Assembly: GCA_937958815.1 (NCBI GenBank)
Contig: CALGMR010000001.1
Span: forward strand, 1 to 64,000
Length of the DNA stretch: 64,000 nucleotides
Reading direction: 5' to 3'
From: an uncultured Rhizobiaceae group bacterium
GTDB lineage: Bacteria > Pseudomonadota > Alphaproteobacteria > Rhizobiales > Rhizobiaceae
Shown here: piece after piece, positions 8,782-24,936 of the stretch
Layout: every line of letters starts with the position of its first letter
How positions within the stretch are numbered: position 1 is the stretch's first letter
Notes under the pieces: generated by a model
The model's database searches: none
What the model was told of the DNA's origin: nothing
Seen by the model: the letters and a program-made list of their open reading frames with translations, nothing else
Position numbers and translations under genes: made by a program

Positions 8782-9804
8782 ATGAACACTCCCCTTGCTG
8801 ACCTTCTTGCCGAAAAGAAAGTTCTGCTTGCAGATGGCGCAACAGGCACAAACTTTTTCAACATGGGATTGCTGTCAGGCGATGCTCCAGAGCTTTGGAA
8901 CGAAGATGAGCCTGAAAAAGTGGCGACCCTTCATCGCAAGTTCATTGAATCCGGCGCCGACATCATCTTGACCAACACATTTGGAGGCAACCGCAACCGC
9001 TTGAAACTGCACGATGCTCAAAACCGAGCGCGTGAGTTGAATGAAAAAGCTGCAAAAATCGCACGAAGCGAAGCCGAAAAGGCAGACAAGAAGATATTGG
9101 TTGCAGGCTCCGTTGGGCCAACCGGTGAATTGTTCACCCCGCTCGGTGAATTGACCCATGAGTCAGCCGTTGAATCTTTTACGGAACAAATGCTCGGACT
9201 GAAAGATGGCGGCGCTGACGTGCTTTGGATTGAAACCATGTCAGCACGCGAAGAAATCGAAGCCGCTTCAGAAGCTGCACGCAACACCGGCATGGAATAT
9301 GTTTTTACGGCCAGCTTTGACACTGCAGGACGTACCATGATGGGTATACCACCAGCGCAAATGATGGACATTGCTGAAGCCATGGACCCCTCCCCATGTG
9401 CTGTGGGGGCAAATTGCGGCGTGGGCGCAACTGACCTGTTGTTTTCCGTTTTGGACATGACCGCAAATTCACGCGCCAACATTGCAGTTGTGGCAAAAGC
9501 TAATTGCGGCGTACCTCGCATTTCCGGTGATCAGGTGATCTATACCGGCACACCTGAATTGATGGGGGATTACGCCAAATTGGCCATGGATTCAGGCGCC
9601 ACAATCATTGGCGGCTGTTGTGGAACATCATACGATCATCTTGCTGCAATGCGCGTTGCCATTGACGAACACACCAAAGGTGATCGGCCAACTCATGAGA
9701 TTGTGGTCGCCAAAACTGGCGAGTTGGTGAACCAAATTTCGACTGCGGGCAGTGATGGAAACAGCACGAGCTCTTCAAGGCGCAGAGGGCGCAAACGCGG
9801 CTAA
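8782..9804 (+). CDS. bmt: Homocysteine S-methyltransferase (bmt-type; possible split MetH subunit)
   Basis: Zinc-dependent homocysteine methyltransferase domain protein, 340 residues, making methionine from homocysteine. The zinc cysteines are C212 (GANCGVG) and C279-C280 (GGCCGTS); LLADGATGTNF and TNTFGGNR are typical of the N-terminal half. This family is usually annotated betaine-homocysteine methyltransferase, but here the corrinoid, pterin-binding and reactivation modules of MetH are all encoded nearby as separate genes, so it may be the homocysteine subunit of a split B12-dependent methionine synthase. The last eight residues, RRRGRKRG, form a basic tail shared in kind with the products at 14.8, 22.5 and 24.9 kb. 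Start at ATG 8782; the frame extends upstream without support. Confidence 0.85.
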   Translation: MNTPLADLLAEKKVLLADGATGTNFFNMGLLSGDAPELWNEDEPEKVATLHRKFIESGADIILTNTFGGNRNRLKLHDAQNRARELNEKAAKIARSEAEKADKKILVAGSVGPTGELFTPLGELTHESAVESFTEQMLGLKDGGADVLWIETMSAREEIEAASEAARNTGMEYVFTASFDTAGRTMMGIPPAQMMDIAEAMDPSPCAVGANCGVGATDLLFSVLDMTANSRANIAVVAKANCGVPRISGDQVIYTGTPELMGDYAKLAMDSGATIIGGCCGTSYDHLAAMRVAIDEHTKGDRPTHEIVVAKTGELVNQISTAGSDGNSTSSSRRRGRKRG

Positions 9805-9807
9805 GTG

Positions 9808-10458
9808 TCAGATATAGGCAGCCATATGAAATGCTTGATGGTCTTGCTCATAGGTGTACTCAACGCCGACAGGGCAAGACTTGCGCGCCAAACAACTGCC
9901 GCTTCTGCAAGTAAAACCAGCGTCACTGCGCACATGCGATTTGCAGCTTAAATAGTCATAGCCTTCGTTGGTGAAAGCCCCGATTGGACAGGTTGACAAG
10001 CAAGGCTTATCCGCACATCGGTCGCAGGGATGCCAATCCACCACTTTGTGCGTGAACTCAATTTCACAATCAAACATGAGTGCACCGCGAAAGGCCGTCC
10101 ACAATCCATATTCGGGGTGAATGAACAAGCCGATCGGTGATTGTTTCATACCCGTCGCCTGTCCTGCCCATTGTTGAAACGGCCAGATCTTTTCACCAAA
10201 TGGAAACCGCAGTTCTGCGCGCAATTCATCGGCTACTGGTTTCAAGACAGCTTGCGTCCAACGATCCAACGCATTTGGTTCGCCATCGTCATACTCATCC
10301 GACTTTTGAAACGATGACCAAAGACTGCTGCCAATATTGCCCACCAACAGTCCCGCGGTCCCGTCTTCATCACGAAACCATCCGAAAGGCAAAAGGCCAA
10401 AAGGCGCGAGCAATGCCCGCGCCTCATTCTGCAAAATATCTGCTTTGGATTGTGTCAA
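9808..10458 (-). CDS. 4Fe-4S ferredoxin-like protein
   Basis: A 216-residue soluble protein with a cysteine-rich C-terminal half. One group is CDRCADKPCLSTCPIGAF, which resembles a 4Fe-4S ferredoxin motif (CX2CX4CX3CP), followed by C in YLSCKS and a third group CRSGSCLARKSCPVG. Two clusters are possible. The N-terminal half has no domain that I recognise. The start is a TTG at 10458, 14 bases after the VWA gene on the same strand, and the ribosome site is weak. It is convergent with the homocysteine methyltransferase gene, separated by 3 bases. A low-potential electron carrier role is possible but not shown. Confidence 0.65.
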   Translation of the reverse strand: MTQSKADILQNEARALLAPFGLLPFGWFRDEDGTAGLLVGNIGSSLWSSFQKSDEYDDGEPNALDRWTQAVLKPVADELRAELRFPFGEKIWPFQQWAGQATGMKQSPIGLFIHPEYGLWTAFRGALMFDCEIEFTHKVVDWHPCDRCADKPCLSTCPIGAFTNEGYDYLSCKSHVRSDAGFTCRSGSCLARKSCPVGVEYTYEQDHQAFHMAAYI

Positions 10459-10472
10459 ACGTGCTGGTCTTT

Positions 10473-12488
10473 CTAACGTGACTTCGAAAGCGACCCTGCC
10501 ATGCGAGCCAGTTGAACGAAAGCGCTGCGATAGCCAAACGAGTCTTCACCCTTCGCTTCATTCGCCATGTCCGCAATTTCCGCATAACTCATGTCATCCA
10601 GCGCAGAATTACCCCGCAATTTCTGACCGAAAGCAGCAACCGCTGTGGCGAAATTGATGTCGTTTGAAACAGTGCCTTTTTTCTCATCGGGGCTGTTCAT
10701 CACCAATGGTGTCGACAACAACTTGCTTTTGCTTTCTGTTGGCAACTTGTAGCGCATTTTCAGAAAGCCGACCTCACCATATGGGTTTTCAGCTGCAGCT
10801 GGCTTGGCATCACCATAACGTAATGGATCAACCAAAACTGCAGGACTGCCCACTGGCCTTAGTTCATAGATTGCAGTCACAGAGTGGCCTGCCCCAATAT
10901 CTCCTGCATCCACTTTGTCATTGTTGAAATCTTCACGTTTCAAAGCGCGGGTCTCATATCCAATCAAACGATATTCAGCGATTTTGCTTGGGTCGAACTC
11001 CACCTGAATTTTTACATCTTTGGCGATTGGGAAAAGCGTTCCACCTGATTCATCAACCAGCGCTTTTTGCGCCTCAGCCAAAGTGTCAATATAGGCCGCC
11101 TGTCCATTGCCGTTTTGAGCCAGTGACTGCATCAAAGTGTCATTGATATTACCTTTGCCAAATCCGAAGACAGAAAGGAAAACACCAGACTTTCGTTTCT
11201 TGGCGATGAAGTCTTTCAACTGGTTTGGGTCAGAAATTCCCACATTGAAATCACCATCCGTCGCCAACATCACACGGTTCACACCGTCTTTGACGAAGTT
11301 TTCCTCGGCCAAACGATAAGCTTGTTCAATGCCTTGAGCCCCAGCGGTGGAACCACCTGCTTTCAAATTTTCAAGCGCAGAGATAATTGCGGTTCGGTTG
11401 GACGCTTCTGTGGGTTCCAAAACCGTTGCAGAACGACCAGCATAGGTCACGATTGAAACTTTGTCCGTCGGATTCAATTTTTGAAGCAACAGGCGGAACG
11501 ACTTGATCAACAACGGCAATTTGTCAGGCGAGCTCATAGAGCCTGAAACATCCAATAAGAACACAAGGTTCGCTGGAGGTTGCTCAGCAGTCTCCACATC
11601 GAAACCTTTGATGCCAATATGCATAAGCTTTGTGTGCTCGTTCCACGGCGTTGTCATGATCGTCACGCTTGGCTTGAACGGCTGCGCTTTCGTTTCCGGC
11701 AATGGATAGGAATACGGGAAATAATTGATCAACTCTTCCACCCGCACCATGTCGGTACGTGGCAACACACCATCCATAATCGAACGCCGAACGCGAGAGT
11801 ATGACGCCGTATCCACATCAATTGAAAATGTCGAGACGGGTTCAGTCACAACAGCCTTCACACCGTTGTTTTTGAATTCTGGGAAGCGCTCGTTATTGGT
11901 CGTCGTGGTGATCGGGCTAGGTCGAGATAAGACGACACCATCTTGAACAATTGGTGCGGCGCCCTTTGCAACACGCCCCAAATTTTTCTGGCGAAGTGCC
12001 TGCACTCTGGGCTGAGCCACAGAAACTTCGGCAGCGGTGTCAGCCAATTGGCTCTCACCTGATGCAGCAAAATTTTCAGTCGAAGGCTTCTTTGGTTTTA
12101 TCGCTCCATGAGACGGAACAACCGCAGGTTCTGTTGAACTGTTGGCCTCCTTCTCCAATCCAAAAGAAGCCGGATTTTCCAGTTCATAATTGTCCAGTGC
12201 AATCACACCAACAACAGGCACAAGCATGACACCTGCAACGGCAGCCATTGCGGCTGGTTTCATCTCCCAAACGGGTTTCAAAATCGAATTCATAAGTCCA
12301 CTCCAAATTGTGTTCGTTATGGAGGTAGGACGTGTCTCGCCTTCAATTCCTTGGGTTGCCGTCGATTTTTTTTCCAATTGTGCAGCATCAAAAGCATCCA
12401 TAGCCGCATTCATGGCACTTTCTTGAGCTGCACCCCTTGATGCAGGCGCTTTCAAATTTCCGAGTTTTTTCAGGTCATCATCAATCAT
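10473..12488 (-). CDS. VWA domain protein with N-terminal membrane anchor (YfbK-like)
   Basis: About 671 residues: a short cytoplasmic region (1-78) resembling an anti-sigma factor tail, one membrane segment near 79-98, a Pro/Ala-rich linker, then a von Willebrand factor A domain with the MIDAS motif DVSGS at D313-S317 and a later ATDGDFN. The C-terminal part resembles the domain that follows VWA in YfbK-type proteins. The ATG at 12488 lies one base after the stop of the ECF sigma gene, so the two are translationally coupled. This context suggests it controls that sigma factor across the membrane, which is inference. A TTG at 12500 could add four residues. Confidence 0.8.
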   Translation of the reverse strand: MIDDDLKKLGNLKAPASRGAAQESAMNAAMDAFDAAQLEKKSTATQGIEGETRPTSITNTIWSGLMNSILKPVWEMKPAAMAAVAGVMLVPVVGVIALDNYELENPASFGLEKEANSSTEPAVVPSHGAIKPKKPSTENFAASGESQLADTAAEVSVAQPRVQALRQKNLGRVAKGAAPIVQDGVVLSRPSPITTTTNNERFPEFKNNGVKAVVTEPVSTFSIDVDTASYSRVRRSIMDGVLPRTDMVRVEELINYFPYSYPLPETKAQPFKPSVTIMTTPWNEHTKLMHIGIKGFDVETAEQPPANLVFLLDVSGSMSSPDKLPLLIKSFRLLLQKLNPTDKVSIVTYAGRSATVLEPTEASNRTAIISALENLKAGGSTAGAQGIEQAYRLAEENFVKDGVNRVMLATDGDFNVGISDPNQLKDFIAKKRKSGVFLSVFGFGKGNINDTLMQSLAQNGNGQAAYIDTLAEAQKALVDESGGTLFPIAKDVKIQVEFDPSKIAEYRLIGYETRALKREDFNNDKVDAGDIGAGHSVTAIYELRPVGSPAVLVDPLRYGDAKPAAAENPYGEVGFLKMRYKLPTESKSKLLSTPLVMNSPDEKKGTVSNDINFATAVAAFGQKLRGNSALDDMSYAEIADMANEAKGEDSFGYRSAFVQLARMAGSLSKSR

Positions 12489-12489
12489 T

Positions 12490-13047
12490 TCAGTTTCCAA
12501 CCTTCTCTTCTTCCAAGAGCAGAACTTTCAGCCGTTTTTTCGCATCGTGGATATTTGAGGCAATTGTGCCTTCCGCGCAGTGTAGAGCAGCGGCTGCATC
12601 CGCATGGCTCAGCCCCTCCCCAAACACCAACAGAAGACAATCCCGCTGCCTGTTTGGCAGTTTGCGAACAGCACGCCAAAGCGTTTCCGTCTCATCATCA
12701 TGTTGCGTTTCTGGTTCTTGAACATCTGGACGCGACGGTTCAACCGCCCAAGCCTCCAGCTTCTTCGCGCGCGATGCGCTTTTGCGGTGATGATCGCGCG
12801 TGGCGTTCAAAACCACTCGGTAAAGCCACGTGGAAAACTTCGCCTGCCCATGAAAATTATGCAGCGTTTGGCCCAACCGCACACAAACATCTTGAGCAAT
12901 ATCTTCGGCATCTTCGCGATTGCCGCAATATTTCCACGCCACGCGAAACATAGTGTCGTAGTGACGTGAAATCAGCGCAGCAAATGCCGCCCGATCCCCA
13001 TCAATCGCACGCCGAACCAGCATTTCATTTCCAACAACTTCTTTCAT
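12490..13047 (-). CDS. ECF-type RNA polymerase sigma factor
   Basis: A sigma-70 family extracytoplasmic-function sigma factor of 185 residues. Region 2 is visible around residues 25-62 (YCGNREDAEDIAQDV) and region 4 around 130-175, with a helix-turn-helix near LSHADAAAALHCAEGTIASN. It is followed directly by the membrane-anchored VWA protein, which probably holds or senses for it. The signal and targets are unknown. The mttB-like gene lies just upstream on the same strand, with 173 bases between. Confidence 0.9.
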   Translation of the reverse strand: MKEVVGNEMLVRRAIDGDRAAFAALISRHYDTMFRVAWKYCGNREDAEDIAQDVCVRLGQTLHNFHGQAKFSTWLYRVVLNATRDHHRKSASRAKKLEAWAVEPSRPDVQEPETQHDDETETLWRAVRKLPNRQRDCLLLVFGEGLSHADAAAALHCAEGTIASNIHDAKKRLKVLLLEEEKVGN

Positions 13048-13220
13048 AGTCAGATGTTAGACGAAACCAATCGGGCTTTCCTTGGGTGTGATTGGAAAAA
13101 ACGTCAAAAAATCTTCGCTCAACTTTTCACAGTCGAGCGCCAAACCTCTTCATGAATGAAGTTTGCGATGAGTTCATTGCCTTGAACTTCGCGGATATGT
13201 GGTGCCCTAACCTCGCGCTT

Positions 13221-14783
13221 TCAGGTGAAGGCGTCCGGCATGGAATTCTTTTTGACCGCCACAAATTCGTCCAGCGCTTCGCGAACAGCAGGGTCCATCG
13301 CTGGGGCTTCGTGTTGGTTGATCCATTGTTCCGCTTTTTCACGCGCACGTTCTGGCGCAGACTTTGCACCTTCAGCTTCCCATTGTTCAAAGGAATTGTT
13401 GTCTGCGATTTCGGAGCGGAAGAATGCTGTTTGAAAATTCGCCTGTGTGTGAGCCGCACCGAGATAGTGACTGCCCTCGCCCAATCCAACTTCGCGGATT
13501 GCATCCAGCGCTTGGCCATTTTCGTCAATGGCGACACCTTGCGCCATCTTTTGTTGCGCAGCCAGTTGATCACAATCCATCACGAACTTTTCGAAAGAAG
13601 AAACCAGCCCACCTTCCAACCATCCAGCCGCATGAAGCGAGAAGTTCACACCACCCAGCAAGGTTGCATTCAACGTGTTTGCGCTTTCATAAGCGGCTTG
13701 TGCATCAGGCAATTTTGAGCCCGTCAATGAACCACCCGAACGGAACGGAAGGTTGAACTTCCGCGCAAATTGCGCTGCTCCATACAGCACTTGGCTGGGT
13801 TCCGGCGTGCCAAATGCTGGTGCACCAGACTGCATGGAAATGGATGTGGCAAATGTACCCATAATAACGGGTGCGCCCGGGCGGCAAAGTTGCGAAAAGG
13901 CAATGGCTGCCTGCGCCTCTGCGAGCACCTGCGTGAGTGTCCCCGCCACAGTTACCGGAGACATAGCGCCACCCACAATGAACGGTGAAATAATACAAGC
14001 CTGATTGGCGCGGGCATAAACCTTCAACGCGCCCAACATCGTATCATCCATCACTAAGGGTGAATTGATGTTGATCAGCGATGTGACCACGCAATTGTTG
14101 TCGACAAACTCTTCGCCAAACAGAATTTTCGACATTTCAACCGTGTCGGCAGCGCGTTCTGGCGCAGTGACAGATCCCATATATGGTTTGTCAGACAACG
14201 TCATATGCGCGTGAACCATATCAAGATGGCGCTTGTTCACAGCCACATCGCTTGGTTCTACCACAGTCCCGCCGCTGTGATGCATGGCAGGAGCCGCATA
14301 GGCCATTTTTACAATATTGCGAAAATCTTCCATCGTGCCGTAGCGGCGTTCGCCATCCAGCGCACGCACAAACGGGGGGCCATAAACGGGAGCGAACACT
14401 GTGCTTTTACCACCAATTTCAACACTGCGCTCAGGATTGCGCGCATGTTGTGTGAAGGTGGATGGCGCCGTTTTCATCAATTCACGGCACAAGCCCTTTG
14501 GGAAATGCACGCGCTCGCCTTGAACATCGGCGCCCGCTTCTTTCCACATATCCAAAGCTTCCGCGTCGTCGCGAAACTCAACGCCCACTTCTTCTAAAAC
14601 AGTGTCGGCATTGCGCTCGATAATCTCCATCGCTTCATCATCAAGGATGTCAAATTCCTTGATCTTGCGCGTGATGTAGGGAAACGACGCCACTTTTGTG
14701 TTGGATCTTGATGCACGCCGCGCTGCTGCTCCACCGCCTGCACGTCCGCCACGGCCACGCCGCCCTGTTTCAGTTTCGCTCAT
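13221..14783 (-). CDS. MttB-family (non-pyrrolysine) methylamine:corrinoid methyltransferase
   Basis: A trimethylamine methyltransferase (MttB) superfamily protein of 520 residues. No in-frame amber codon interrupts the frame, so it belongs to the group without pyrrolysine, whose studied members demethylate quaternary amines such as glycine betaine, proline betaine or carnitine and methylate a corrinoid protein. The corrinoid gene lies 1.3 kb away. The start at 14783 has GGAG 7 bases upstream. Residues 7-27 are an Arg/Gly/Ala-rich basic tail (GRRGRGGRAGGGAAARRASR) ahead of the TIM-barrel domain, unlike classical MttB. The substrate is not determined; glycine betaine is the leading guess because dimethylglycine/sarcosine oxidation and glycine cleavage genes are in the window. 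Confidence 0.85.
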   Translation of the reverse strand: MSETETGRRGRGGRAGGGAAARRASRSNTKVASFPYITRKIKEFDILDDEAMEIIERNADTVLEEVGVEFRDDAEALDMWKEAGADVQGERVHFPKGLCRELMKTAPSTFTQHARNPERSVEIGGKSTVFAPVYGPPFVRALDGERRYGTMEDFRNIVKMAYAAPAMHHSGGTVVEPSDVAVNKRHLDMVHAHMTLSDKPYMGSVTAPERAADTVEMSKILFGEEFVDNNCVVTSLININSPLVMDDTMLGALKVYARANQACIISPFIVGGAMSPVTVAGTLTQVLAEAQAAIAFSQLCRPGAPVIMGTFATSISMQSGAPAFGTPEPSQVLYGAAQFARKFNLPFRSGGSLTGSKLPDAQAAYESANTLNATLLGGVNFSLHAAGWLEGGLVSSFEKFVMDCDQLAAQQKMAQGVAIDENGQALDAIREVGLGEGSHYLGAAHTQANFQTAFFRSEIADNNSFEQWEAEGAKSAPERAREKAEQWINQHEAPAMDPAVREALDEFVAVKKNSMPDAFT

Positions 14784-14916
14784 TATTTTGCTCCGGAACG
14801 AAAGACCGCGTTTCTCTAAAACGCTTGTTCTTGGCAATATCCTGCCAGCGCCTTTGAAACAACTGCCTGCAAACGAAACCTACTGTCGCACACACGACGA
14901 TGGCATTGGCCTGCTC

Positions 14917-15372
14917 TTACTTTTTCTGGCGGAAATCTTGGTGACACCCTTTGCATGTTCCGGCAATTTGCTGAAACACGGGTTCAATATCCGATTTTGA
15001 AGAGGCTATTACACCGACATCAGCCAATTGTGCTGACGCGGTTTCAAGTACAGTGACAATTCTCTGAAATTCTTCAGGGCGTTCCCAGATGGCAGGAATG
15101 GCTTCACTTGGCCCTTTGATACTGCCCTGCGGAAAAAGAGCGACAATCTCTGAAGCGTGTTTGTTCAAAACTTCCGCATTCTTTTTGATTTCAACACGCG
15201 CAGCTTCCACATTCCCCCAATCTTGCTGGGCAATCGATTTTGTGGCTGCCGCGATTTCTTTCATCGCCATCATGCGTTCTTTTACGATGCCAGTCGCCCC
15301 CGAATGCGCCCATGCAAAACCCACGGCAAACACACCGATTGAGACTGCCAAAATCGTTCTTTTCATTTTCAA
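14917..15372 (-). CDS. Cytochrome c' family protein
   Basis: A periplasmic class II cytochrome c (cytochrome c') of 151 residues. It has a signal peptide at about 1-22 (ending VGFAWAHS), a helical-bundle-like middle and the single haem site CKGCH at 140-144 near the C terminus, the usual position for this family. It follows the MauE-like gene by 3 bases, so the two form an operon, and it precedes the mttB-like gene by 133 bases on the same strand. A role in electron transfer or gas binding is possible. ATGs at 15372 and 15366 are both usable. Confidence 0.88.
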   Translation of the reverse strand: MKMKRTILAVSIGVFAVGFAWAHSGATGIVKERMMAMKEIAAATKSIAQQDWGNVEAARVEIKKNAEVLNKHASEIVALFPQGSIKGPSEAIPAIWERPEEFQRIVTVLETASAQLADVGVIASSKSDIEPVFQQIAGTCKGCHQDFRQKK

Positions 15373-15375
15373 ACC

Positions 15376-15894: not shown

Positions 15895-15991
15895 AGAAGT
15901 CTCCGTAACGCACGGTGCTTGAAACACATCGTACCGCAACTTTAGGGTGCTACATATCCTTTACGTTCACCAAGAACCACAATTGAGCAAA

Positions 15992-16007: not shown

Positions 16008-16020
16008 GTCGCAATCGTTG

Positions 16021-16111: not shown

Positions 16112-16807
16112 ATGTCCGAAGAACCAGAAATCGTTCTTTCCGAACTCTCAACTGAAGAGCTCGTCCTGCAAATGCATGACGACCTTTACGACGGCCTGAA
16201 AGAGGAAATCGAAGAAGGCACAAATATTTTGCTGTCTCGCGATTGGACCCCTTACAAAGTTCTCACCGAAGCTCTTGTTGAGGGCATGCGGATTGTGGGT
16301 GAAGACTTCCGCGATGGCATTTTGTTCGTGCCGGAAGTACTGCTGTCCGCAAACGCCATGAAAGCCGGCATGACCATTTTGCGACCTCTGCTTGCTGAGA
16401 CAGGCGCGCCCAAACAAGGCACAATGGTGATTGGCACTGTGAAGGGTGATATTCACGACATCGGCAAAAACCTCGTCGGCATGATGATGGAAGGTGCAGG
16501 GTTTGACGTCATTGATATTGGCATCAACAACCCAGTTGAGAACTATCTCGATGCGATTGAAGAGCACAAGCCAGACATTATCGGCATGTCCGCCCTTCTT
16601 ACGACCACCATGCCATACATGAAGGTGGTCATTGATACACTGATTGAAAAAGGCATGCGCGACGACTTTACTGTTCTCGTAGGCGGTGCTCCACTGAACG
16701 AAGAATTCGGTGCTGCTATTGGCGCAGACGCCTATTGCCGTGATGCGGCCGTAGCAGTTGAAACGGCCAAAGAATATATGGCACGAAAGCATAATCAACG
16801 CGCCTAG
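16112..16807 (+). CDS. Corrinoid (B12-binding) methyl carrier protein
   Basis: A 231-residue free corrinoid protein of the MetH cobalamin-domain/MtbC type. It has a helical cap (about 15-95) and a Rossmann-like B12 domain with D113-x-H115-xx-G118 (DIHDIG), S160-x-L162 and GG191-192. H115 is the lower axial cobalt ligand. It carries methyl groups between methyltransferases. The first 36 residues are strongly acidic (about 13 Asp/Glu and one Lys), which contrasts with the basic tails on its likely partners. The start at 16112 has GGAGG 9 bases upstream; an ATG at 16106 is too close. It is followed by a strong terminator. Confidence 0.93.
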   Translation: MSEEPEIVLSELSTEELVLQMHDDLYDGLKEEIEEGTNILLSRDWTPYKVLTEALVEGMRIVGEDFRDGILFVPEVLLSANAMKAGMTILRPLLAETGAPKQGTMVIGTVKGDIHDIGKNLVGMMMEGAGFDVIDIGINNPVENYLDAIEEHKPDIIGMSALLTTTMPYMKVVIDTLIEKGMRDDFTVLVGGAPLNEEFGAAIGADAYCRDAAVAVETAKEYMARKHNQRA

Positions 16808-16886: not shown

Positions 16887-17495
16887 ATGAATCAAAATGC
16901 CAATCACAAATCAGACGTTCGTGTTGTCGCCTGCGGCGCGCTGGCACGTGAGATTTTGGCTGTTTGCGAAACAAATAAACTTGATCATATCGACCTCACC
17001 TGCCTGCCCGCCATTTTGCACAACCACCCTGAACAAATTCCAGATGCCGTCGACAAAGCAATCGTCGAAGCGAAAGCCGAAGGCTTCAAAAACATATTCA
17101 TCGCCTATGCAGATTGCGGCACCGGCGGTCAGTTAGACGCAGTTTGTCAAAAACATAATGTTGAACGTATTGCAGGCCCCCATTGCTATTCGTTTTTCTG
17201 GGGAAATAGGGCGTTTGAAGCGCGCGATGAAGACGATATTTACACGTTCTTTTTAACCGATTTTCTAGCGCGTCAATTCAAAGCATTCATGATTGACCCG
17301 CTGAAATTAGACAAACATCCAGAACTCATTGAAATGATGTTCGGACGCTACAAAAAACTCGTCTATCTGGAACAGTTGCACGAAGATGAGTTGGAGCAAA
17401 AAGCACGAGATGCCGCAGATTTTCTGGGGCTAACTTACGAAAAGCGTGTCACCGGATATGGCGACTTAACCCCGGCCCTGACACAACTTGGTTGA
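16887..17495 (+). CDS. DUF1638 domain protein
   Basis: A 202-residue soluble protein matching the DUF1638 pattern: RVVACGALAREI near the start, YADCGTGG around residue 73 and GPHCYSFFWG around residue 96, with several spaced cysteines that could bind metal or a cluster. DUF1638 genes repeatedly accompany corrinoid methyltransferase genes, and as I recall a role in keeping a split methionine synthase active has been suggested from mutant-fitness data in a roseobacter. Here it sits between the corrinoid protein and a GMC oxidoreductase. The biochemical function is unknown. Confidence 0.8.
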   Translation: MNQNANHKSDVRVVACGALAREILAVCETNKLDHIDLTCLPAILHNHPEQIPDAVDKAIVEAKAEGFKNIFIAYADCGTGGQLDAVCQKHNVERIAGPHCYSFFWGNRAFEARDEDDIYTFFLTDFLARQFKAFMIDPLKLDKHPELIEMMFGRYKKLVYLEQLHEDELEQKARDAADFLGLTYEKRVTGYGDLTPALTQLG

Positions 17496-17536: not shown

Positions 17537-17540
17537 GAAA

Positions 17541-19124
17541 ATGAACAGTTTTGATTATATTGTCGTTGGCGGAGGGTCTGGCGGGTGCGTCGTAGCAAGC
17601 CGTTTAAGCGAAGACCCTAACGTTTCTGTTTGCTTGATTGAAGCTGGTGGCGAAGGCAAAAACCTCATCAGCAAAATCCCTGCTGGTGTTGCCGCCATTT
17701 TGCCAACGCCCATCTTGAACTGGTCGTACAAACCCAAAGCTTCCAAGGGGCTAAACGGTCGCGGCGGCTATCAACCGCGCGGCAAAGCACTTGGCGGTTC
17801 AAGCACAATCAACGCCATGCTTTACGTGCGCGGCCATCAAAGCGACTATGATGAATGGAGAGACTTGGGAAACCCAGGTTGGGGCTGGAAAGATGTACTC
17901 CCCTATTTCAAAAAGTCCGAAGGCAACACGCGAGGCGCGGATAATCTGCATGGTGCAGATGGACCGCTTGGTGTCACAGATGGCAGAGCCAATCACGAAA
18001 TCGCCGATGCGTTTCTAGAAGCGGGGCGCGAATTGCAACTTCCCATCAATGATGACTTCAACGGACCGTCCCAAGAAGGCCTTGGCAAATATCAGGTGAC
18101 CCAAAAGAATGGCGAGCGCTGCAGTGCTGCTGCAGCCTATATCCACCCACATATGGATCGACCAAATTTAACGATCTACACCCGAACCAAAGCCCATAAA
18201 CTTCTATTTGAGGGCAAAAAAGCCACTGGTGTAAAACTTGGTGGAAAGCACAAGGGGACAATTATAGCAAAGAAGGAAATCATACTGGCTGGTGGCGCAT
18301 TCAACACGCCTCACTTGCTTATGTTGTCTGGCATCGGCCCGGAAGATCACTTGATGGACCATGGCATTAAAGTTGTTCACCACAGTCCGGAAGTGGGTGA
18401 AAACCTGCAAGATCATATTGATTACATCACCGCTTACAAATCTGCTCGAAAGGACACGTTTGGTGTGTCGCTCAGCGGAACGGTCGACATCATCAAGGGC
18501 ATTTTCGAGTGGCGCAAAAAACGCTCAGGCAAACTGACAACCACATTCGCCGAGGCAGGTGGTTTCGTAAAATCCGACCAAGCGATCGACAAGCCCGATC
18601 TTCAATATCATTTTGTCGTGGGCATTGTGGATGATCACAACAGAAAACTACATTTGGGGCACGGCTTTTCATGCCACGTCTGCGTGCTGCGCCCCAAAAG
18701 CCGTGGGTATGTGCGCCTTGAAGACGCCAACCCTAACAACAAACCCATTGTTCAGATGAATTTCCTTGAAGAACGCGAAGATATGGATTTGCTGCTGAAA
18801 GGGTTTCACCACATGCGTCAGTTGCTCGAAGCGCCCGCCCTTTCCTCTTGGCGCAAAAAGGAACTTTACACGGCCGATATTGATGATGATGCAGCCCTTG
18901 AGAAAATCATTCGTGATCGTGCCGACACTGTTTATCACCCCGTAGGCACATGCCGCATGGGGTCTGACAGTTCAGCAGTTGTTGATCCAGAATTGCGGGT
19001 CAATGGCGTAGAGGGTCTCCGCATCGCAGATGCTTCAATTATGCCGCGCATCATCGGTGGAAACACCAATGCACCAACCATTATGATTGGTGAAAAATGC
19101 GCGGATATGATAAAAATATCATAA
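17541..19124 (+). CDS. GMC family oxidoreductase (choline dehydrogenase-like)
   Basis: An FAD-dependent glucose-methanol-choline family oxidoreductase of 527 residues. The FAD-binding N terminus is IVVGGGSGGCVVASRL, the GMC signature region is around GRGGYQPRGKALGGSS, and the C-terminal signatures are YHPVGTCRMG and NTNAPTIMIGEK. It resembles BetA choline dehydrogenases (choline to betaine aldehyde), but this family includes many alcohol dehydrogenases of other specificity. No betaine aldehyde dehydrogenase is in the window. If it is BetA-like, it would supply glycine betaine to the neighbouring methyltransferases. Confidence 0.85.
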   Translation: MNSFDYIVVGGGSGGCVVASRLSEDPNVSVCLIEAGGEGKNLISKIPAGVAAILPTPILNWSYKPKASKGLNGRGGYQPRGKALGGSSTINAMLYVRGHQSDYDEWRDLGNPGWGWKDVLPYFKKSEGNTRGADNLHGADGPLGVTDGRANHEIADAFLEAGRELQLPINDDFNGPSQEGLGKYQVTQKNGERCSAAAAYIHPHMDRPNLTIYTRTKAHKLLFEGKKATGVKLGGKHKGTIIAKKEIILAGGAFNTPHLLMLSGIGPEDHLMDHGIKVVHHSPEVGENLQDHIDYITAYKSARKDTFGVSLSGTVDIIKGIFEWRKKRSGKLTTTFAEAGGFVKSDQAIDKPDLQYHFVVGIVDDHNRKLHLGHGFSCHVCVLRPKSRGYVRLEDANPNNKPIVQMNFLEEREDMDLLLKGFHHMRQLLEAPALSSWRKKELYTADIDDDAALEKIIRDRADTVYHPVGTCRMGSDSSAVVDPELRVNGVEGLRIADASIMPRIIGGNTNAPTIMIGEKCADMIKIS

Positions 19125-19130
19125 AATGTG

Positions 19131-19170
19131 ACACGTCGTTTTTTGAATTGAAACACGTCGTCCCTATATT
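19131..19170 (+). promoter_or_regulatory. Direct repeats and candidate promoter before the virulence factor/MetF-like pair
   Basis: ACACGTCGT occurs twice, at 19131-19139 and 19153-19161, 22 bases apart (two helical turns). TTGAAT (19143-19148) and TATATT (19165-19170) with a 16-base spacer could be -35 and -10 elements. The repeats flank and overlap this promoter, as an activator or repressor site might. Confidence 0.35.
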
Positions 19171-19228
19171 AGTATTGTCAGAAAAATCTGCGCATCCTGC
19201 GCATTGAAACCCATTGAGGCCGCTATTC

Positions 19229-19531
19229 ATGGCGCAGTTGCAAATTGTTTATTGGCGCGATATTCCAGCGCAAGTTTTGGTGAAAGCTGGACGTCGCAAT
19301 CAGGCCAAGCGAGAGCTGTCATTGCGCTTTACGGAAGCCATCGATATGGCCGCCATGCGCGATGGGGCAGCAGAGACCGACGAGTATTTGGCCGAGTGGC
19401 GCCGTGGCGACCCGATCCCAGTGGGCGACGAGCTTGAGGCAGAGGCTGATGCCGCACTGGAAAAAATTGAAACCGACTACGACAAAGAGCGCCTTGTCGC
19501 TTTGGTGAAAAACGGGGGCAGAGAAGCATGA
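19229..19531 (+). CDS. Virulence factor-domain small protein
   Basis: A 100-residue acidic protein of the small 'virulence factor' family named in Pfam (MAQLQIVYWRDIPAQV at the start, and a middle with KRELSLRFTEAID). It has no catalytic motif or membrane segment. It overlaps the following MetF-like gene by four bases (ATGA), so they are co-translated and probably interact. The family name says nothing about function here; a subunit or regulator of the MetF-like protein is my inference. The start is the ATG at 19229, with GAGG 9 bases upstream. Confidence 0.75.
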   Translation: MAQLQIVYWRDIPAQVLVKAGRRNQAKRELSLRFTEAIDMAAMRDGAAETDEYLAEWRRGDPIPVGDELEAEADAALEKIETDYDKERLVALVKNGGREA

Positions 19532-20391
19532 CAAAAATCAATGCATCCATAGAAGTTTCTGCAAAACACGTTCACGATGTGAAACTGACAGCAGACATGT
19601 TGCCGCCTGGCACGCGCGTTTATGTGACAGATGTCGGTGTCGACCCTGTGTCGGAAATCACCCTCGCCTGTAAGAAAATTACAGACATGGGCTATTGCCC
19701 GGTGCCGCACATCCCTGCCCGACGGATTGAAAGCGAAGCCGCACTGGAAGCCCGCCTTTCAGGTCTCGTCAACGAAGCTGGCGTGAATGATGTTTTGATT
19801 ATTGCTGGTGAGGCGGATGACCAAATGGGGCCGTACAGTTCCAGCATTGAAGTATTGCAAACTGGCTTGATTGACAAGCTCGGTATTCAACATGTTGGCC
19901 TTGGCGGGCACCCTGAAGGCAATGCCGCTTACGCTGGCCAAGACGTCATGAGCATTTTGCGGGATAAAATCAGCTTTGGCGACAACAGTGATGCTGAATT
20001 CCGCATTGTCACGCAGTTTGGATTTGACGGCCCAAAATTCATTCAGTGGGCAAAAGACGTCAAAGCCGCAGGCATCGAAGCGCCTATTCATTTGGGTGTC
20101 GCTGGCCCTGCAAAAATTACAACTTTGATCAAATATGCAGCTTTGTGTGGCGTTGGAAATTCTCTCAATTTCCTCAAAAAGCGCACCAGCGCAATCGCCC
20201 AATTGGCGACAAAACACTCGCCCGAAGAAGTTGTTGGCCCTATTGAGGAAACTTGGAGAACAGGCGATACGAACATCGCCCAATTGCACGTTTTTCCATT
20301 CGGTGGCTTACAGGCTTCAGCAACTTGGTTGGCAGAACGTGGCAGTTATGAATTGAGCGCAAAACCCAAAGCTCTCCGCTCCATCATCTAA
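19528..20391 (+). CDS. MetF-like methylenetetrahydrofolate reductase family protein
   Basis: A 287-residue protein related to MetF in fold (VYVTDVGVDP, the GYCPVPHIPARR stretch, LIIAGEADDQMGPY) but divergent from the canonical metF that lies next to it. Homologues occur in corrinoid methyltransferase clusters, where they may oxidise methyl-THF to methylene-THF rather than reduce it. It is coupled by ATGA overlap to the virulence factor-domain protein. Having two MetF-type proteins side by side, convergent and 18 bases apart, suggests opposite directions or different partners for the same reaction. Confidence 0.78.
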   Translation: MTKINASIEVSAKHVHDVKLTADMLPPGTRVYVTDVGVDPVSEITLACKKITDMGYCPVPHIPARRIESEAALEARLSGLVNEAGVNDVLIIAGEADDQMGPYSSSIEVLQTGLIDKLGIQHVGLGGHPEGNAAYAGQDVMSILRDKISFGDNSDAEFRIVTQFGFDGPKFIQWAKDVKAAGIEAPIHLGVAGPAKITTLIKYAALCGVGNSLNFLKKRTSAIAQLATKHSPEEVVGPIEETWRTGDTNIAQLHVFPFGGLQASATWLAERGSYELSAKPKALRSII

Positions 20392-20409
20392 CAGATTGAA
20401 GCTGCTGAA

Positions 20410-21288
20410 TTAGCCGACCAAAGCGGGGCGAAACGCACCATCTTCTTCGCTTGGGAATTCGGCAACGAAGGCACGAATGGCGTCGGCTGTCAGATCAACA
20501 CGGTTCAGCGTGTAGATGTGGATACCTTCCACCTCGTTTTGCGCCAAGTCACGCACCTGATCTTCCAACAGGCTGCGCGATAAATCTGTTTTCGCAGCGT
20601 TATCGTCACCGGTTGCAGCATAAAGCGCTTCAAAGCGCGCAGGCACAGATGCGCCACACTTTTCCGAAAAACGTTTGATTGCCGAGTAATTTGAAATCGG
20701 CATCACGCCAGGAATGAGTTCCAAAGAGATACCTCCCGCAGCAGCCTGATCCCGGAATTTATAAAAAAGGTCGTTGTCGAAAAAATATTGGGTGATGGCG
20801 CGGTCGGCACCTGCATCTTGTTTTGCCTTCAAGACGTCAAGATCAGTTGAGAAAGAGCGTGCTTTAGGATGCACTTCAGGATAAGCTGAAACGGAAATTT
20901 CAACACCAAAGCGCAGTTTCAATTCAAGAACTGCATCTGCAACTGAGGCAAAGCCAGCAAGCCCTTCATTGCGGCCCGAACCATCATCGCCGCGAATAAG
21001 AACGATGTGCATCACACCGTGGCCAATAAGCTCTTCAACAAACTTAAACAAACCCGCTTGGTCAAATTGCGCCAAAGCCAAATGACATGCCGTGGGAACT
21101 TGGTTCAAATTTTGCAGCTGCACGGCCCAGTCAGAACTGGTTTCGCCGCCTTCCCCACCAGCACCAAAAGTGACTGTTTGAAAACGCGGTGAAAATCTGC
21201 GCAACGCATGAGCGCCTGTCATCAAAGCTCTTTCAGACACCAGGTTTTTAGGTGGGAAAAACTCTAGGCTTACAGAACCTGCCAACAT
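20410..21288 (-). CDS. metF: Methylenetetrahydrofolate reductase
   Basis: A flavoprotein that reduces 5,10-methylene-THF to 5-methyl-THF for methionine synthesis; 292 residues. Typical features are VSLEFFPPK at the start, the FVTFGAGG-like segment QTVTFGAGGEGG, ILIRGD-like IVLIRGDD, and SAYPEVHP with QYFFDNDLF. A 24-base imperfect palindrome lies about 90 bases upstream of its start, related to one upstream of the homocysteine methyltransferase gene, which suggests common control of methionine-cycle genes. Confidence 0.95.
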   Translation of the reverse strand: MLAGSVSLEFFPPKNLVSERALMTGAHALRRFSPRFQTVTFGAGGEGGETSSDWAVQLQNLNQVPTACHLALAQFDQAGLFKFVEELIGHGVMHIVLIRGDDGSGRNEGLAGFASVADAVLELKLRFGVEISVSAYPEVHPKARSFSTDLDVLKAKQDAGADRAITQYFFDNDLFYKFRDQAAAGGISLELIPGVMPISNYSAIKRFSEKCGASVPARFEALYAATGDDNAAKTDLSRSLLEDQVRDLAQNEVEGIHIYTLNRVDLTADAIRAFVAEFPSEEDGAFRPALVG

Positions 21289-21379
21289 TTGCGGATCTCC
21301 ATGATGCTTGTACTGCGAAAATAGACGACAACGAATGTCGCAATAGAAACATAAATCACATTTTTGAATTTTGCAAGGT

Positions 21380-21403
21380 TGATATAAAGATTTCTTTATG
21401 TCA
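21380..21403. promoter_or_regulatory. Candidate operator between metF and the methyl-THF:corrinoid methyltransferase
   Basis: TGATATAAAGA (21380-21390) and TCTTTATGTCA (21393-21403) are inverted repeats matching at 10 of 11 positions with a 2-base spacer. It lies in the 260-base divergent region between metF and the pterin-binding methyltransferase gene. It resembles, from memory, ATAAAGA/TCTTTAT motifs assigned to SahR in Alphaproteobacteria; this needs checking. Confidence 0.55.
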
Positions 21404-21510
21404 ATTAGCAGCCATCAACAGCACAGTTGAAACTGCGTCTCGCAAATGTCGCTTTTGACGCTTCCACGCTTGGACTCTGCGGTCAAAACTGTGCTGACAA
21501 ACACCTTTAC

Positions 21511-21526
21511 GCTCAAACGTTTGAGC
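21511..21526. promoter_or_regulatory. Perfect palindrome before the methyl-THF:corrinoid methyltransferase
   Basis: GCTCAAACGTTTGAGC is identical to its reverse complement. It lies 22 bases before the GTG start at 21549, just upstream of the TTGGAG ribosome site. It could be an operator or, in RNA, a tight hairpin followed by GCTTTTT. The regulator is unknown. Confidence 0.4.
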
Positions 21527-21548
21527 GCTTTTTGGAGACTTACAGCCC

Positions 21549-22493
21549 GTGACCAGAACCATCGTCGCCTCCGCCACAAAAGAAGTCGTCATTGGCTTTG
21601 ATCAGAAATTTTGTGTGATCGGGGAAAGAATCAACCCCACAGGCCGTAAGAAGCTGGCTGCGGAAATGCAGGCGGGCAATTTTGAAACGGTGAAGGCCGA
21701 CGCTTTGGCGCAAGTTGCCGCTGGTGCCACAATGCTAGACGTCAATGCTGGTGTGACATCGGTTGATCCAAATGCGACAGAGCCGGGCTTGATGGTTCAA
21801 ACGCTGGAGATCGTTCAAGACCTCGTTGACGTGCCACTCTCCATTGATTCTTCTGTATCCGCCGCCATTGAAGCAGGTTTGAAAGTTGCCAAGGGGCGCC
21901 CTCTCGTAAACTCCGTCACAGGTGAAGAAGAAAAGCTCGAAGCAATCCTCCCGCTCATCAAACAATATGATGTGCCTGTTGTGGCGATTTCAAACGACGA
22001 GACAGGTATTTCAGAAGACCCTGATGTTCGTTTCGAAGTGGCAAAAAAGATCGTGGAACGCGCCGCTGATTTCGGCATTCCTGCCCACGACATTGTGGTT
22101 GACCCATTGGTGATGCCAATTGGCGCTATGGGTACAGCTGGCAAACAGGTTTTCGCCCTTGTGCGCCGTTTGCGCGAAGAACTCGGCGTGAACACCACAT
22201 GCGGCCTATCGAATATTTCATTCGGCCTGCCCCACCGCCATGGCATCAACGCAGCATTCATCCCCATGTGCATCGCCTCTGGCATGACATCGGCCATCAT
22301 GAACCCTTGTCGCCCACAAGAAATGGAAATGGTTCACGCAGGCAATGTTCTTGCAGGAAACGACGCGGACTGCACCGACTGGATCATGAACTACAAAAAC
22401 CACACCGCAGCCGCAGGAGCGGCCCCAACGGCTGCACCAGCAAGTGGCGGCAGCCGCCGTCGCGGTGGCCGCGCAGCGCGGGCTGGAAATTAA
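21549..22493 (+). CDS. Methyl-THF:corrinoid methyltransferase (pterin-binding domain)
   Basis: A 314-residue TIM-barrel protein of the dihydropteroate synthase/MeTr type, which moves methyl between methyl-THF and a corrinoid protein. Marks are GERINPTGRKK (about 18-28), MLDVNAGV, SIDSSVSAAIEAGL, SNDETGISED and DPLVMPIG. It is equivalent to the pterin-binding module of MetH or to MtgA of betaine systems. The C-terminal 15 residues, GGSRRRGGRAARAGN, follow an Ala/Pro-rich linker and make a basic tail of the kind on three other proteins here. The start is GTG at 21549, with GGAG 11 bases upstream. A small membrane protein and the RamA-like activator follow. Confidence 0.9.
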   Translation: MTRTIVASATKEVVIGFDQKFCVIGERINPTGRKKLAAEMQAGNFETVKADALAQVAAGATMLDVNAGVTSVDPNATEPGLMVQTLEIVQDLVDVPLSIDSSVSAAIEAGLKVAKGRPLVNSVTGEEEKLEAILPLIKQYDVPVVAISNDETGISEDPDVRFEVAKKIVERAADFGIPAHDIVVDPLVMPIGAMGTAGKQVFALVRRLREELGVNTTCGLSNISFGLPHRHGINAAFIPMCIASGMTSAIMNPCRPQEMEMVHAGNVLAGNDADCTDWIMNYKNHTAAAGAAPTAAPASGGSRRRGGRAARAGN

Positions 22494-22516
22494 GTCGACC
22501 GAGCGCGAACAGTTCA

Positions 22517-22903
22517 GTGAATCAGCTCTCCAAAAAAGCACCGACATTTTGGCTGAGCCTGGTTCTGCTTTCTTTGCTAATCGCATTGCTTATCTCAACC
22601 CACATTGCACAAACAAAATATGGTTTCATCGAGTTTGAGCTACGTAAAAATGGTGATGGCGGCGACTCCAATGAGATGGCTTATTTGCAAGAAGATCGAC
22701 TATTCTCCTCCATCAAATCCTCGTTTGGAGTTTTTGTGTTGTCTCTTCTCTTGAGCTGGAGCACCGCCAAATCTGGTTTGGTTAAACCAGCTTGGAAAGA
22801 GTATAGAAAGCTTGGCTTCATCGGTCTGATTTCTGCATTCTCTTTGATATTTTTATCCATCCTTCGCACAGCTAACCCAATACCTGTTTGGCAATATTCA
22901 TGA
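22517..22903 (+). CDS. Small three-span membrane protein of unknown function
   Basis: A 128-residue protein starting at GTG 22517 (VNQLSKKAPTF, translated with Met). Three hydrophobic segments are visible at about 11-30, 70-82 and 99-116, with a short charged loop (ELRKNGDGGDSNEMAYLQED) between the first two. I recognise no family. The stop overlaps the RamA-like start by four bases (ATGA), and the gene begins 23 bases after the methyltransferase stop, so it is part of this operon. It may anchor or support electron delivery to the activator, but that is a guess. A longer open frame starting within the upstream gene is a shadow. Confidence 0.65.
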   Translation: MNQLSKKAPTFWLSLVLLSLLIALLISTHIAQTKYGFIEFELRKNGDGGDSNEMAYLQEDRLFSSIKSSFGVFVLSLLLSWSTAKSGLVKPAWKEYRKLGFIGLISAFSLIFLSILRTANPIPVWQYS

Positions 22904-24936
22904 GCACTGATCCCCTCGTCGTCTTCACCCCGTCTGGCAAACGCGGTCACTTCCCCGTTGGCACGCCAATCCTCGACGCGGCCCGTGAGCTTGGGGTCTA
23001 TGTGGAATCAGTATGTGGCGGACGTGGCATTTGCGGGCGCTGTCAGGTCGCGCCAGAATTTGGGCATTTTGCGAAACACGGCATCGAGTCAAAGGCGGAA
23101 GCCGTTTCCGATTGGTCTTCCAAAGAAGCGCGTTACACCGAAAAACGTGGCGACTTGCCTGAAGGACGACGTCTATCTTGCTCGGCAACCGTTCAAGGCC
23201 CACTGATTGTCGATATTCCAGCCGACACGGTGGTGAACCAGCAAGTTGTGCGCAAAGCCGCTGACACGCGCATAATAGAACGCAACCCCGCTGTGCAATT
23301 GTGCTATGTAGAGGTTGAAGAACCCGACATGCACAAACCGCTCGGTGATCTTGACCGTGTGAAAGTCGCGCTGGAACGAGATTGGGGCGTGACCGATGTT
23401 CTCGTATCCCAACACATTTTGCCAATTGTTCAGCAAGTGCTGCGCAAGGGAAAGTGGGCCGCCACTGTTGCTATACATCAGGATTTAGAATCTTCGCGCC
23501 CCACCATGATCGCGATCTATCCCGGCCTCAAGAACGAGGCCTATGGCATTGCATGTGATATTGGCTCAACCACCATCGCCATGCACTTGTCGTCTCTGCT
23601 TTCAGGGCGCACCCTCGCCTCCTCTGGCACATCCAACCCGCAAATTCGCTTCGGTGAAGACGTGATGAGCCGCGTGTCTTATGTGATGATGAACCCCGAT
23701 GGTCGTGAAGCCATGACCAAGGCCGTGCGCGATGCGGTGAACGGCCTCATTCAAAATGTATGTTCGGAAGCTGGTGTCGAGCCGGAAGACATTCTCGACA
23801 GCGTGTTCGTGGGCAACCCAATCATGCACCACTTGTTCTTGGGCGTAGACCCGACGGAACTCGGCGGCGCACCATTTGCATTGGCTGTCTCTGGCGCAGT
23901 GCACACTTGGGCCACCGAACTTGATCTTCATATGAACGAAGGCACACGTGTTTACATTATTCCGTGCATTGCAGGCCACGTGGGCGCAGATGCGGCGGCG
24001 GCCACATTGTCAGAAGCGCCACACAAAGAAAAAAAACTTTCCCTGCTGGTGGATGTGGGAACCAACGCTGAAATCGTTCTCGGGCACGAAAGCCATACGC
24101 TCGCCTGTTCTTCGCCCACAGGCCCTGCTTTTGAAGGCGCAGAAATCTCTTGTGGCCAGCGCGCCGCCCCCGGTGCGATTGAACGTGTTCGCATTGACCC
24201 AACAACGTTAGAGCCTCGCATCAAAATCATTGGTGCAGACATGTGGTCAGATGAACCCGGTTTTGCGGATGCCGCCAAGGCAACGGGTGTCACAGGCATT
24301 TGCGGCTCAGGCATTATCGAAGTGATTGCCGAAATGTTCTTGGCCGGAGTGATCGACGAAGATGGCGTTTTGGATGGCAGCAATGCGGCAAGATCAACCC
24401 GCGTTTTCGAAGACAACCGAACCTTTGCCTATCGTCTTTGGGAAACCGAAGATGGTCCAGACATTACGGTCAGCCAAACCGATGTGCGCGCTATTCAAAT
24501 GGCGAAGGCCGCGCTTTATGCAGGCGTGAAACTGCTGATGGAAAAACACGACACCCCCAACGTCTCAAAAATCAATTTGGCGGGTGCGTTCGGCACATTC
24601 ATCGATCCCAAATACGCTTTGGTGATGGGGCTCGTGCCCGATTGCGAAATCGAAAATGTAAAGGCCGTGGGCAATGCCGCTGGCACGGGCGCGCGCATGG
24701 CACTGCTCAACCGAACGCACCGCCGCGAAATCGAAGGAACGGTGAAAAACATCGACAAAATCGAAACCGCTCTGGAGCCGAAATTTCAAGAACACTTCGT
24801 CAACGCGATGGCTTTCCCCAACAAAGTGGACAAATTTCCCCGCCTTGAAGCAGAAGTGAAACTTCCAGAACGCCGTTCAGGCGCCGAAGAGGCTGGCGCT
24901 GCACCTCGCAGACGCGGTGGCCGCAGACGGGGCTAA
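22900..24936 (+). CDS. RamA/RACo-like corrinoid activator (2Fe-2S plus ASKHA domain)
   Basis: A reductive activator of corrinoid proteins, 678 residues: an N-terminal 2Fe-2S ferredoxin domain with C39, C45, C48 (CGGRGICGRC) and C94, a middle linker, then an ASKHA ATPase-type domain from about residue 214 (GIACDIGSTTIAM; GICGSGIIEV later). Such proteins use ATP and a low-potential electron to return inactive Co(II) corrinoid to Co(I). It would replace the SAM-dependent reactivation domain of MetH. The C terminus is RRRGGRRRG after an Ala/Gly linker, a basic tail like those of its neighbours. The start at 22900 overlaps the previous gene (ATGA). Confidence 0.92.
   Translation: MSTDPLVVFTPSGKRGHFPVGTPILDAARELGVYVESVCGGRGICGRCQVAPEFGHFAKHGIESKAEAVSDWSSKEARYTEKRGDLPEGRRLSCSATVQGPLIVDIPADTVVNQQVVRKAADTRIIERNPAVQLCYVEVEEPDMHKPLGDLDRVKVALERDWGVTDVLVSQHILPIVQQVLRKGKWAATVAIHQDLESSRPTMIAIYPGLKNEAYGIACDIGSTTIAMHLSSLLSGRTLASSGTSNPQIRFGEDVMSRVSYVMMNPDGREAMTKAVRDAVNGLIQNVCSEAGVEPEDILDSVFVGNPIMHHLFLGVDPTELGGAPFALAVSGAVHTWATELDLHMNEGTRVYIIPCIAGHVGADAAAATLSEAPHKEKKLSLLVDVGTNAEIVLGHESHTLACSSPTGPAFEGAEISCGQRAAPGAIERVRIDPTTLEPRIKIIGADMWSDEPGFADAAKATGVTGICGSGIIEVIAEMFLAGVIDEDGVLDGSNAARSTRVFEDNRTFAYRLWETEDGPDITVSQTDVRAIQMAKAALYAGVKLLMEKHDTPNVSKINLAGAFGTFIDPKYALVMGLVPDCEIENVKAVGNAAGTGARMALLNRTHRREIEGTVKNIDKIETALEPKFQEHFVNAMAFPNKVDKFPRLEAEVKLPERRSGAEEAGAAPRRRGGRRRG

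Follow-up and report, generated by a model that had tools for sequence, protein, structure and literature searches.

Genes of a probable modular methyltransferase system

The window analysed here, the first 64,000 nucleotides of contig CALGMR010000001.1 (assembly GCA_937958815.1) from an uncultured Rhizobiaceae bacterium, contains the genes of a putative B12-dependent methyltransferase system with separately encoded subunits, several of which bear an Arg/Gly-rich stretch (hereafter the tag) at one terminus. The homocysteine methyltransferase subunit is encoded by mtgE (bmt; 8782–9804, + strand; PF02574, E 5.6e-60), the corrinoid carrier by mtgC (16112–16807, +; PF02607 and PF02310, with a DxHxxG motif at residue 113), and the methyltetrahydrofolate (methyl-THF):corrinoid methyltransferase by mtgD (21549–22493, +; PF00809; 400 bits with the PRK07535 model, for which the cut-off is 259). 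An earlier note, made from the sequence without database searches, had claimed that the homocysteine-, corrinoid-, and methyl-THF-binding modules of methionine synthase are separate genes at these positions, and the Pfam and NCBIfam matches bear this out: PF02574, PF00809, and PF02607+PF02310 occur in separate proteins, the arrangement expected of a split synthase. The note had also placed a RamA/RACo-like activator at 22900–24936 (+; the open reading frame (ORF) can be read from 22888 with TTG), and the encoded protein contains the linker, middle, and C-terminal (ASKHA) RACo domains above the Pfam cut-offs (PF17650, PF17651, and PF14574), matches the RACo structure 3zyy with an E of 1.2e-93 (phmmer), and has Cys43, Cys49, Cys52, and Cys98 in its N-terminal region as a candidate 2Fe-2S ligand cluster. 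The DUF1638 protein (16887–17495, +; PF07796, E 9.6e-30) and metF (20410–21288, −; PF02219, E 3.6e-62) were likewise named correctly. The gene mtgB (13221–14783, −), located between mtgE and mtgC, was overlooked; mtgE, mtgC, mtgD, and mtgB all lie inside 14 kb. Its product is a methyltransferase of the MttB superfamily (PF06253, E 2.8e-224), presumed to act on glycine betaine. Among solved chains, 4yyc matches it best (E 4.7e-250), followed at about 1e-110 by 2qne and 9yce, both named as glycine betaine methyltransferases. MtgB thus occurs together with MtgC and MtgD, the combination that characterizes MtgBCDE systems, and the full dual-purpose set looks present. In a sample of 249 Pseudomonadota genomes, a strong RACo match (E < 1e-70) was found in 30, of which 29 also had a strong MtgD and 28 an MTTB protein, so this gene combination does not arise by chance.

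The earlier note had proposed a search of the whole genome for other methionine synthases. In the available assembly (22 contigs, 92.35% complete), neither the reactivation domain of MetH (PF02965) nor the MetE domain PF01717 was matched. The genome encodes two PF02574 proteins, MtgE and an MmuM-like homocysteine S-methyltransferase on contig 20, which is untagged, scores below all NCBIfam cut-offs, and is encoded between oxidoreductase genes that by eye resemble dimethylglycine dehydrogenases. Two proteins contain PF02310, MtgC and one encoded on contig 13. The latter was considered as a second methyl carrier and rejected, since by eye it was judged to be a regulator, of a type that we take to be AerR/PpaA. 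Because the second PF02310 protein looks like a regulator, MtgC appears to be the single methyl-carrying corrinoid protein that serves all four MTTB proteins of the genome (MtgB and three paralogues).

Split synthases with RamA-like and DUF1638 partners are already in print (Price 2018; Mausz 2025). The earlier note was correct in pointing to such a system in Phaeobacter inhibens: mutants in the three synthase genes, in the DUF4445/RamA-like gene, and in the DUF1638 gene are rescued by methionine, and all three synthase genes are cofit (Price 2018, PMC5764234). In Ruegeria pomeroyi, mtgC and mtgD are required both for methionine synthesis and for the use of glycine betaine, deletion of either gene results in methionine auxotrophy, and the bmt gene of Sinorhizobium meliloti has been interpreted as mtgE (Mausz 2025, PMC12478193). 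Given this work on Phaeobacter and Ruegeria, the system is a known one and the locus is a further member. The P. inhibens synthase is similar to the one described here in its three separate modules, RamA-like protein, and DUF1638 protein, with PF02965 unmatched in the present genome; its loci are dispersed, as far as gene numbers indicate, whereas mtgE, mtgC, mtgD, and mtgB form one cluster here. The MtgBCDE systems of R. pomeroyi and S. meliloti have the same subunits, RamA, and DUF1638. In an S. meliloti record labelled pSymB (3.7 Mb), genes for Bmt, MTTB, the corrinoid protein, DUF1638, MTHFR, MtgD, and the ASKHA protein are located within 18.2 kb. The methyl-THF operon of S. meliloti also encodes a small PF13769 protein (positions 17909–18208 of the excerpted locus) to which 46 of the filtered genes described below are related, and the family name 'Virulence_fact' is probably misleading for it. 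MetH has the same three chemical modules and the same order of methyl transfer; unlike the locus proteins, it is one chain with a reactivation domain dependent on S-adenosylmethionine (SAM). The anaerobic systems represented by MtgB (2qne/9yce), MttB–MttC, and RACo (3zyy) contain homologous methyltransferase, corrinoid protein, and activator folds.

Judging from homologues with published genetics, methyl transfer would proceed in two branches that meet at MtgC. In the methionine branch, MtgD would move the methyl group from methyl-THF onto Co(I)-MtgC, and MtgE would then hand it from MtgC to homocysteine. In the betaine branch, MtgB would methylate MtgC from glycine betaine, and MtgD, working in reverse, would yield methyl-THF for MetF. 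The RACo/RamA-like protein would re-reduce inactive Co(II), standing in for the SAM-dependent fourth module of MetH, with DUF1638 assisting in this reactivation. Seven DUF1638 residues are invariant over 36 sequences (Cys16, His34, Cys39, His45, Cys77, His99, and Cys100), and these cysteines and histidines suggest a metal site. The AlphaFold model of DUF1638 is a confident one (pLDDT 91); Foldseek gave no match to it at E ≤ 0.001 in the PDB or among viral models, and a profile search of the PDB gave nothing better than 0.059.

The function of MtgE is the point at which this scheme has to be weighed against an alternative, in which MtgE is a true stand-alone betaine/dimethylsulfoniopropionate (DMSP)–homocysteine methyltransferase and betaine demethylation is the sole task of the corrinoid genes. 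MtgE passes the equivalog cut-off of PRK07534, the NCBIfam model for betaine-homocysteine S-methyltransferase (498.6 versus 338 bits), although this model may itself have been built from MtgE-type proteins. Purified P. inhibens Bmt forms methionine from betaine or DMSP in vitro without cobalamin (Narvaez-Barragan 2025, PMC12366255), so MtgE may also work alone. In the same study, the bmt deletion mutant was auxotrophic for methionine, with some residual growth. Betaine activity without a corrinoid protein is the observation that the earlier note had named as telling against its reading, and it has thus been described for this homologue. On the other side stand the methionine auxotrophy of the R. 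pomeroyi mtgC and mtgD deletions, the cofitness of the three P. inhibens genes, and the presence on MtgE of the same kind of tag as on MtgD and RamA. Among solved structures, moreover, MtgE is nearest to MetH (best E 2.7e-41, phmmer), and human BHMT, which shares the PF02574 fold, is a distant and much weaker match (1e-10). Cys212 and Cys279–280 of MtgE are present at zinc-type positions. Outside SAR11, the betaine-binding residues of human BHMT are described as lost (PMC12478193). The claim of the earlier note that the betaine-homocysteine methyltransferase name is wrong for this gene, with which Mausz agrees, is therefore only partly secure: the similarity to MetH speaks for it, and the activity of Bmt without cobalamin speaks against it. 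Overall, we regard a stand-alone MtgE as quite unlikely.

Two further points weigh against assigning the locus to the MtgBCDE type, besides the activity of Bmt. The genome is incomplete, and NCBIfam scores are below the cut-offs for MtgC_2 (211 of 370 bits), MtgC (180 of 310), AcsV (390 of 800), and RamA (106 of 500), so that the locus proteins are relatives, not members, of the MtgC, AcsV, and RamA families. Nevertheless, we consider it very probable that the locus encodes a B12-dependent modular methyltransferase of the MtgBCDE type with MtgC as the shared carrier, an estimate that covers the enzyme system and not the tag. The split synthase with a RamA-like reactivator proposed in the earlier note thus stands, as a published system, but was incomplete, since the same proteins probably also demethylate glycine betaine, as their counterparts do.

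Arg/Gly-rich termini of the subunits

The tags, which the earlier note had also missed, are located at the C-termini of MtgE (last 20 residues, 9742–9801, +; 5 Arg), MtgD (22431–22490, +; 5 Arg), and the RamA-like protein (24874–24933, +; 7 Arg), and at the N-terminus of MtgB (residues 1–36, 14676–14783, −). MtgC, DUF1638, MetF, and an MTHFR-like protein encoded nearby are untagged. Among the 51 window genes, called by a simple ORF rule, three have at least four Arg in the last 20 residues, namely those for MtgE, MtgD, and RamA. Three of the tags are located beyond the conserved cores: RamA can be aligned with 3zyy up to residue 652 of its 682, the PRK07535 match of MtgD ends at 288 of 314, and the alignments of MtgB with 2qne and 9yce start at residues 40–42; relative to anaerobic MtgB and RACo, which align over the cores only, the tags are extra. 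The PRK07534 match spans residues 1–337 of the 340 in MtgE, so in MtgE the tail may be part of what this model describes. An Arg/Gly-rich N-terminus is also present in the three MTTB paralogues of the genome, despite only 24–38% identity to MtgB.

Tag frequencies in relatives were determined in a close-locus set, comprising 80 loci, which were chosen from 587 relatives for their closeness and not at random, and three annotated records, with counts that are phylogenetically non-independent. At least five Arg in the last 20 residues were found in RamA in 58 of 59 cases, in MtgE in 47 of 47, and in MtgD in 44 of 53 (53 of 53 at a threshold of at least four), with one RamA failing the rule and one locus showing no tag. 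These counts bear on the possibility that the tags are a functionless by-product of GC-rich gene ends. Rhizobiales and Rhodobacterales, to which many of the sampled genomes belong, usually have GC-rich genomes; the sequences are related, so the counts are not independent; and the first-pass background was high, with 35 of 1098 raw ORFs tagged at the C-terminus and 179 of 1098 at the N-terminus. That background was swamped by spurious Arg-rich ORFs and was replaced by two others, a set of 652 genes filtered by GC content at third codon positions (the filter also removed family members, leaving the 59, 53, and 47 given above) and 74 annotated genes. In the filtered set 18 of 652 genes carry the C-terminal tag, and none of the untagged partners does (MtgC 0/65, DUF1638 0/62, MTHFR 0/50). 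The window has a GC content of 49.6%, and the tagged proteins belong to different families, one of them tagged at the opposite terminus. A by-product of base composition therefore seems very unlikely.

The tags were also found across the phylum sample with the own genome excluded. RamA is tagged in 28 of 28 cases and MtgD in 27 of 28, the remaining MtgD having its Arg stretch further in. MtgE, searched for in 22 of the 29 other genomes with strong RACo matches and found in 20, is tagged in all 20. For MTTB, at least five Arg per 16 residues were present in all 28 fetched loci from 27 genomes; in a further 40 MTTB pieces, drawn from 71 listed places that lack a locus and are outside the own genome, with at most five candidates scored per genome, at least four Arg per 16 were found in 40 and at least five in 37. 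When the own genome is counted as well, the RamA-type protein bears the tag in all of the genomes with the system (29/29) and in none of those without it (0/10), the latter being sampled genomes with a RACo match and no strong MtgD (Fisher p 1.6e-9 on the assumption of independent genomes, whereas they are related). Fused MetH has an untagged C-terminus in all six genomes examined that also hold MtgC, and the four examined separate S-methyl_trans proteins other than MtgE and one haloarchaeal MTTB are untagged too. In a genome with MtgC, MtgD, MtgE, and RamA and no MTTB, and in another with MtgB, MtgC, MtgD, and RamA and no separate MtgE, the checked subunits are tagged, so the tag follows MtgC and not one branch of the pathway. 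Inspection by eye revealed tags in S. meliloti, where the subunits of the pSymB-labelled locus bear the same ones as here, in Paracoccus aminovorans, and in the betaproteobacterium Azoarcus sp. KH32C, and tagged MTTB proteins in Leisingera (two), Ruegeria, Cereibacter, Parasedimentitalea, and S. meliloti pSymA. The shared tag has apparently not been reported in print: a word search of the main texts of PMC5764234, PMC12478193, and PMC12366255 gave no mention, with supplements and most subscription papers outside the search.

At the level of sequence order, RxGGR is present in all MtgD tails (53/53, versus a mean of 2.6 in composition shuffles) and in many MTTB pieces (26/40, versus a mean of 0.5), two unrelated kinds of protein that bear it at opposite termini. 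The looser GGRxxR is found in MtgD (53/53), MTTB pieces (14/40), close-locus MTTB (28/66), RamA (28/59), and MtgE (4/47). Several observations tell against a specific common tag. RxGGR is absent from close-locus MTTB (0/66) and scarce in RamA (7/59) and MtgE (2/47), and the tails of MtgE and RamA are alike in composition without commonly having this order. In the annotated background, 4 of 74 genes have at least five Arg in the last 20 residues, and 6 of 74 have at least five per 16 near the N-terminus. A five-residue Arg-Gly pattern has 17 matches in the own genome, with 44 for the reversed-pattern control; beyond MtgD and an MTTB protein of contig 16, it occurs terminally in three open frames, of which two are putative (a 314-residue frame that overlaps a longer ORF, and a 190-residue frame with the match at its start) and the third encodes a DEAD-box helicase-like protein with an RG-rich C-terminus, so such tails are not exclusive to the system. 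From the motif counts, what the tags share is a terminus rich in Arg and Gly, and only some of them contain a tighter motif.

Two kinds of function can be proposed for such ends. RG/RGG tails are characteristic of proteins that bind RNA, and the helicase-like protein has the only other clear RG-rich terminal tail seen in the own genome; on this basis the partner of the tags might be a polyanion such as RNA or DNA, or the tags might promote condensation, in place of binding MtgC. The tagged proteins are, however, enzymes of one pathway, and the tag is lacking in RACo of genomes without the system (0/10), in fused MetH (0/6), and in the examined S-methyl_trans paralogues (0/4), so we consider polyanion binding or condensation rather unlikely. 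The likeliest role is that the tags would dock the enzymes onto MtgC or co-assemble them with it, replacing the covalent linkers of MetH, and we judge the chance of this to be close to even, if not slightly lower.

The first 36 residues of MtgC have a net charge of −12, and this acidic N-terminus is conserved, the net charge of the same stretch ranging from −11 to −16 among 22 close sequences. The alignments to 1y80 and 4jgi do not include the residues before 23, whereas 7xcn_M aligns from residue 14 and 2i2x_B from residue 5. The predicted model of MtgC has a modest confidence of 76.8 and indicates only that residues 14–27 are helical. The N-terminus of MtgC is a possible receptor for the tag. 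There is a precedent for docking by terminal extensions: in a methanogen, the complex of MtaC with MtaB appears to be stabilized by an additional N-terminal domain of MtaC (PMC9842639). More tentatively, the tags may constitute a shared addressing code, in which MtgE, MtgD, the RamA-like protein, and MttB-family donors (four here, five or more in some genomes) would bear an interchangeable, presumably flexible tag. This tag would bind MtgC, perhaps at its acidic N-terminus, or hold the enzymes together in a single assembly, and a new donor would join by acquiring it.

Regulation and metabolic neighborhood

Two 20-bp palindromes are candidates for SahR-like operators, one 5′ of mtgE (8738–8757; ATATAAAGANNTCTTTATAT, 2 mismatches) and the other in the interval between metF and mtgD (21382–21401; 1 mismatch). 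They are the two matches in the window, and 100 shuffles gave none. In the 80 loci (1.53 Mb), 84 sites were found at up to three mismatches, two of which are near locus edges and unassigned. A site is located at most 250 nt upstream of MtgE in 42 of 48 cases and of MtgD in 39 of 66, with much lower counts for MtgC (1/80), MtgB (1/72), DUF1638 (0/75), and RamA (0/63). Published SahR sites are likewise palindromes of 20 bp, and the targets named for SahR are metH and metF, joined in some genomes by bhmT (Leyn 2014, PMC4239095). By resemblance to this description, SahR is the likely candidate for the regulator acting at both palindromes.

The surrounding genes are consistent with betaine metabolism. 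A choline-dehydrogenase-like GMC oxidoreductase is encoded at 17541–19124 (+; assigned by Pfam, with NCBIfam choline dehydrogenase models below their cut-offs). A gcvT-gcvH-gcvP cluster at 1609–5899 (−) is preceded by a glycine riboswitch (6025–6117, −; Rfam RF00504, 65.6 bits), and a protein with DAO and GCV_T domains, an architecture that we take to be of the dimethylglycine/sarcosine dehydrogenase kind, is encoded at 31056–33572 (−). From these domain assignments, the neighborhood would comprise a route from choline through betaine and dimethylglycine to glycine, together with its own B12 methyltransferase. The untagged MTHFR-like protein (19528–20391, +) is a weak match to PF02219 (E 4.4e-05, slightly below the Pfam cut-off); its gene is divergent, adjoins metF, and has homologues in 9 of the searched loci. 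Two ORFs without Pfam matches lie close to these genes, at 9808–10458 (−) and 24963–26537 (−), encoding 216 and 524 amino acids. Elsewhere in the genome, the gene for the regulator-like B12-binding protein of contig 13 adjoins one for a PAS-domain protein, a pair with the look, by eye, of AerR/PpaA–PpsR, which would suggest phototrophy genes.

Meaning of the tagged subunits

Automatic annotation splits the system into a betaine-homocysteine methyltransferase, a trimethylamine methyltransferase, a dihydropteroate synthase, and a DUF1638 protein, and with such piecewise names it is easy to misread how methionine is made and betaine is used. How several unfused enzymes find one B12 carrier is a question that the tag raises and that the cited papers do not address. 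If the docking proposal is true, the tag would mark those uncharacterised MttB-family proteins that feed MtgC, and it could serve to channel methyl groups from new donors into one-carbon metabolism.

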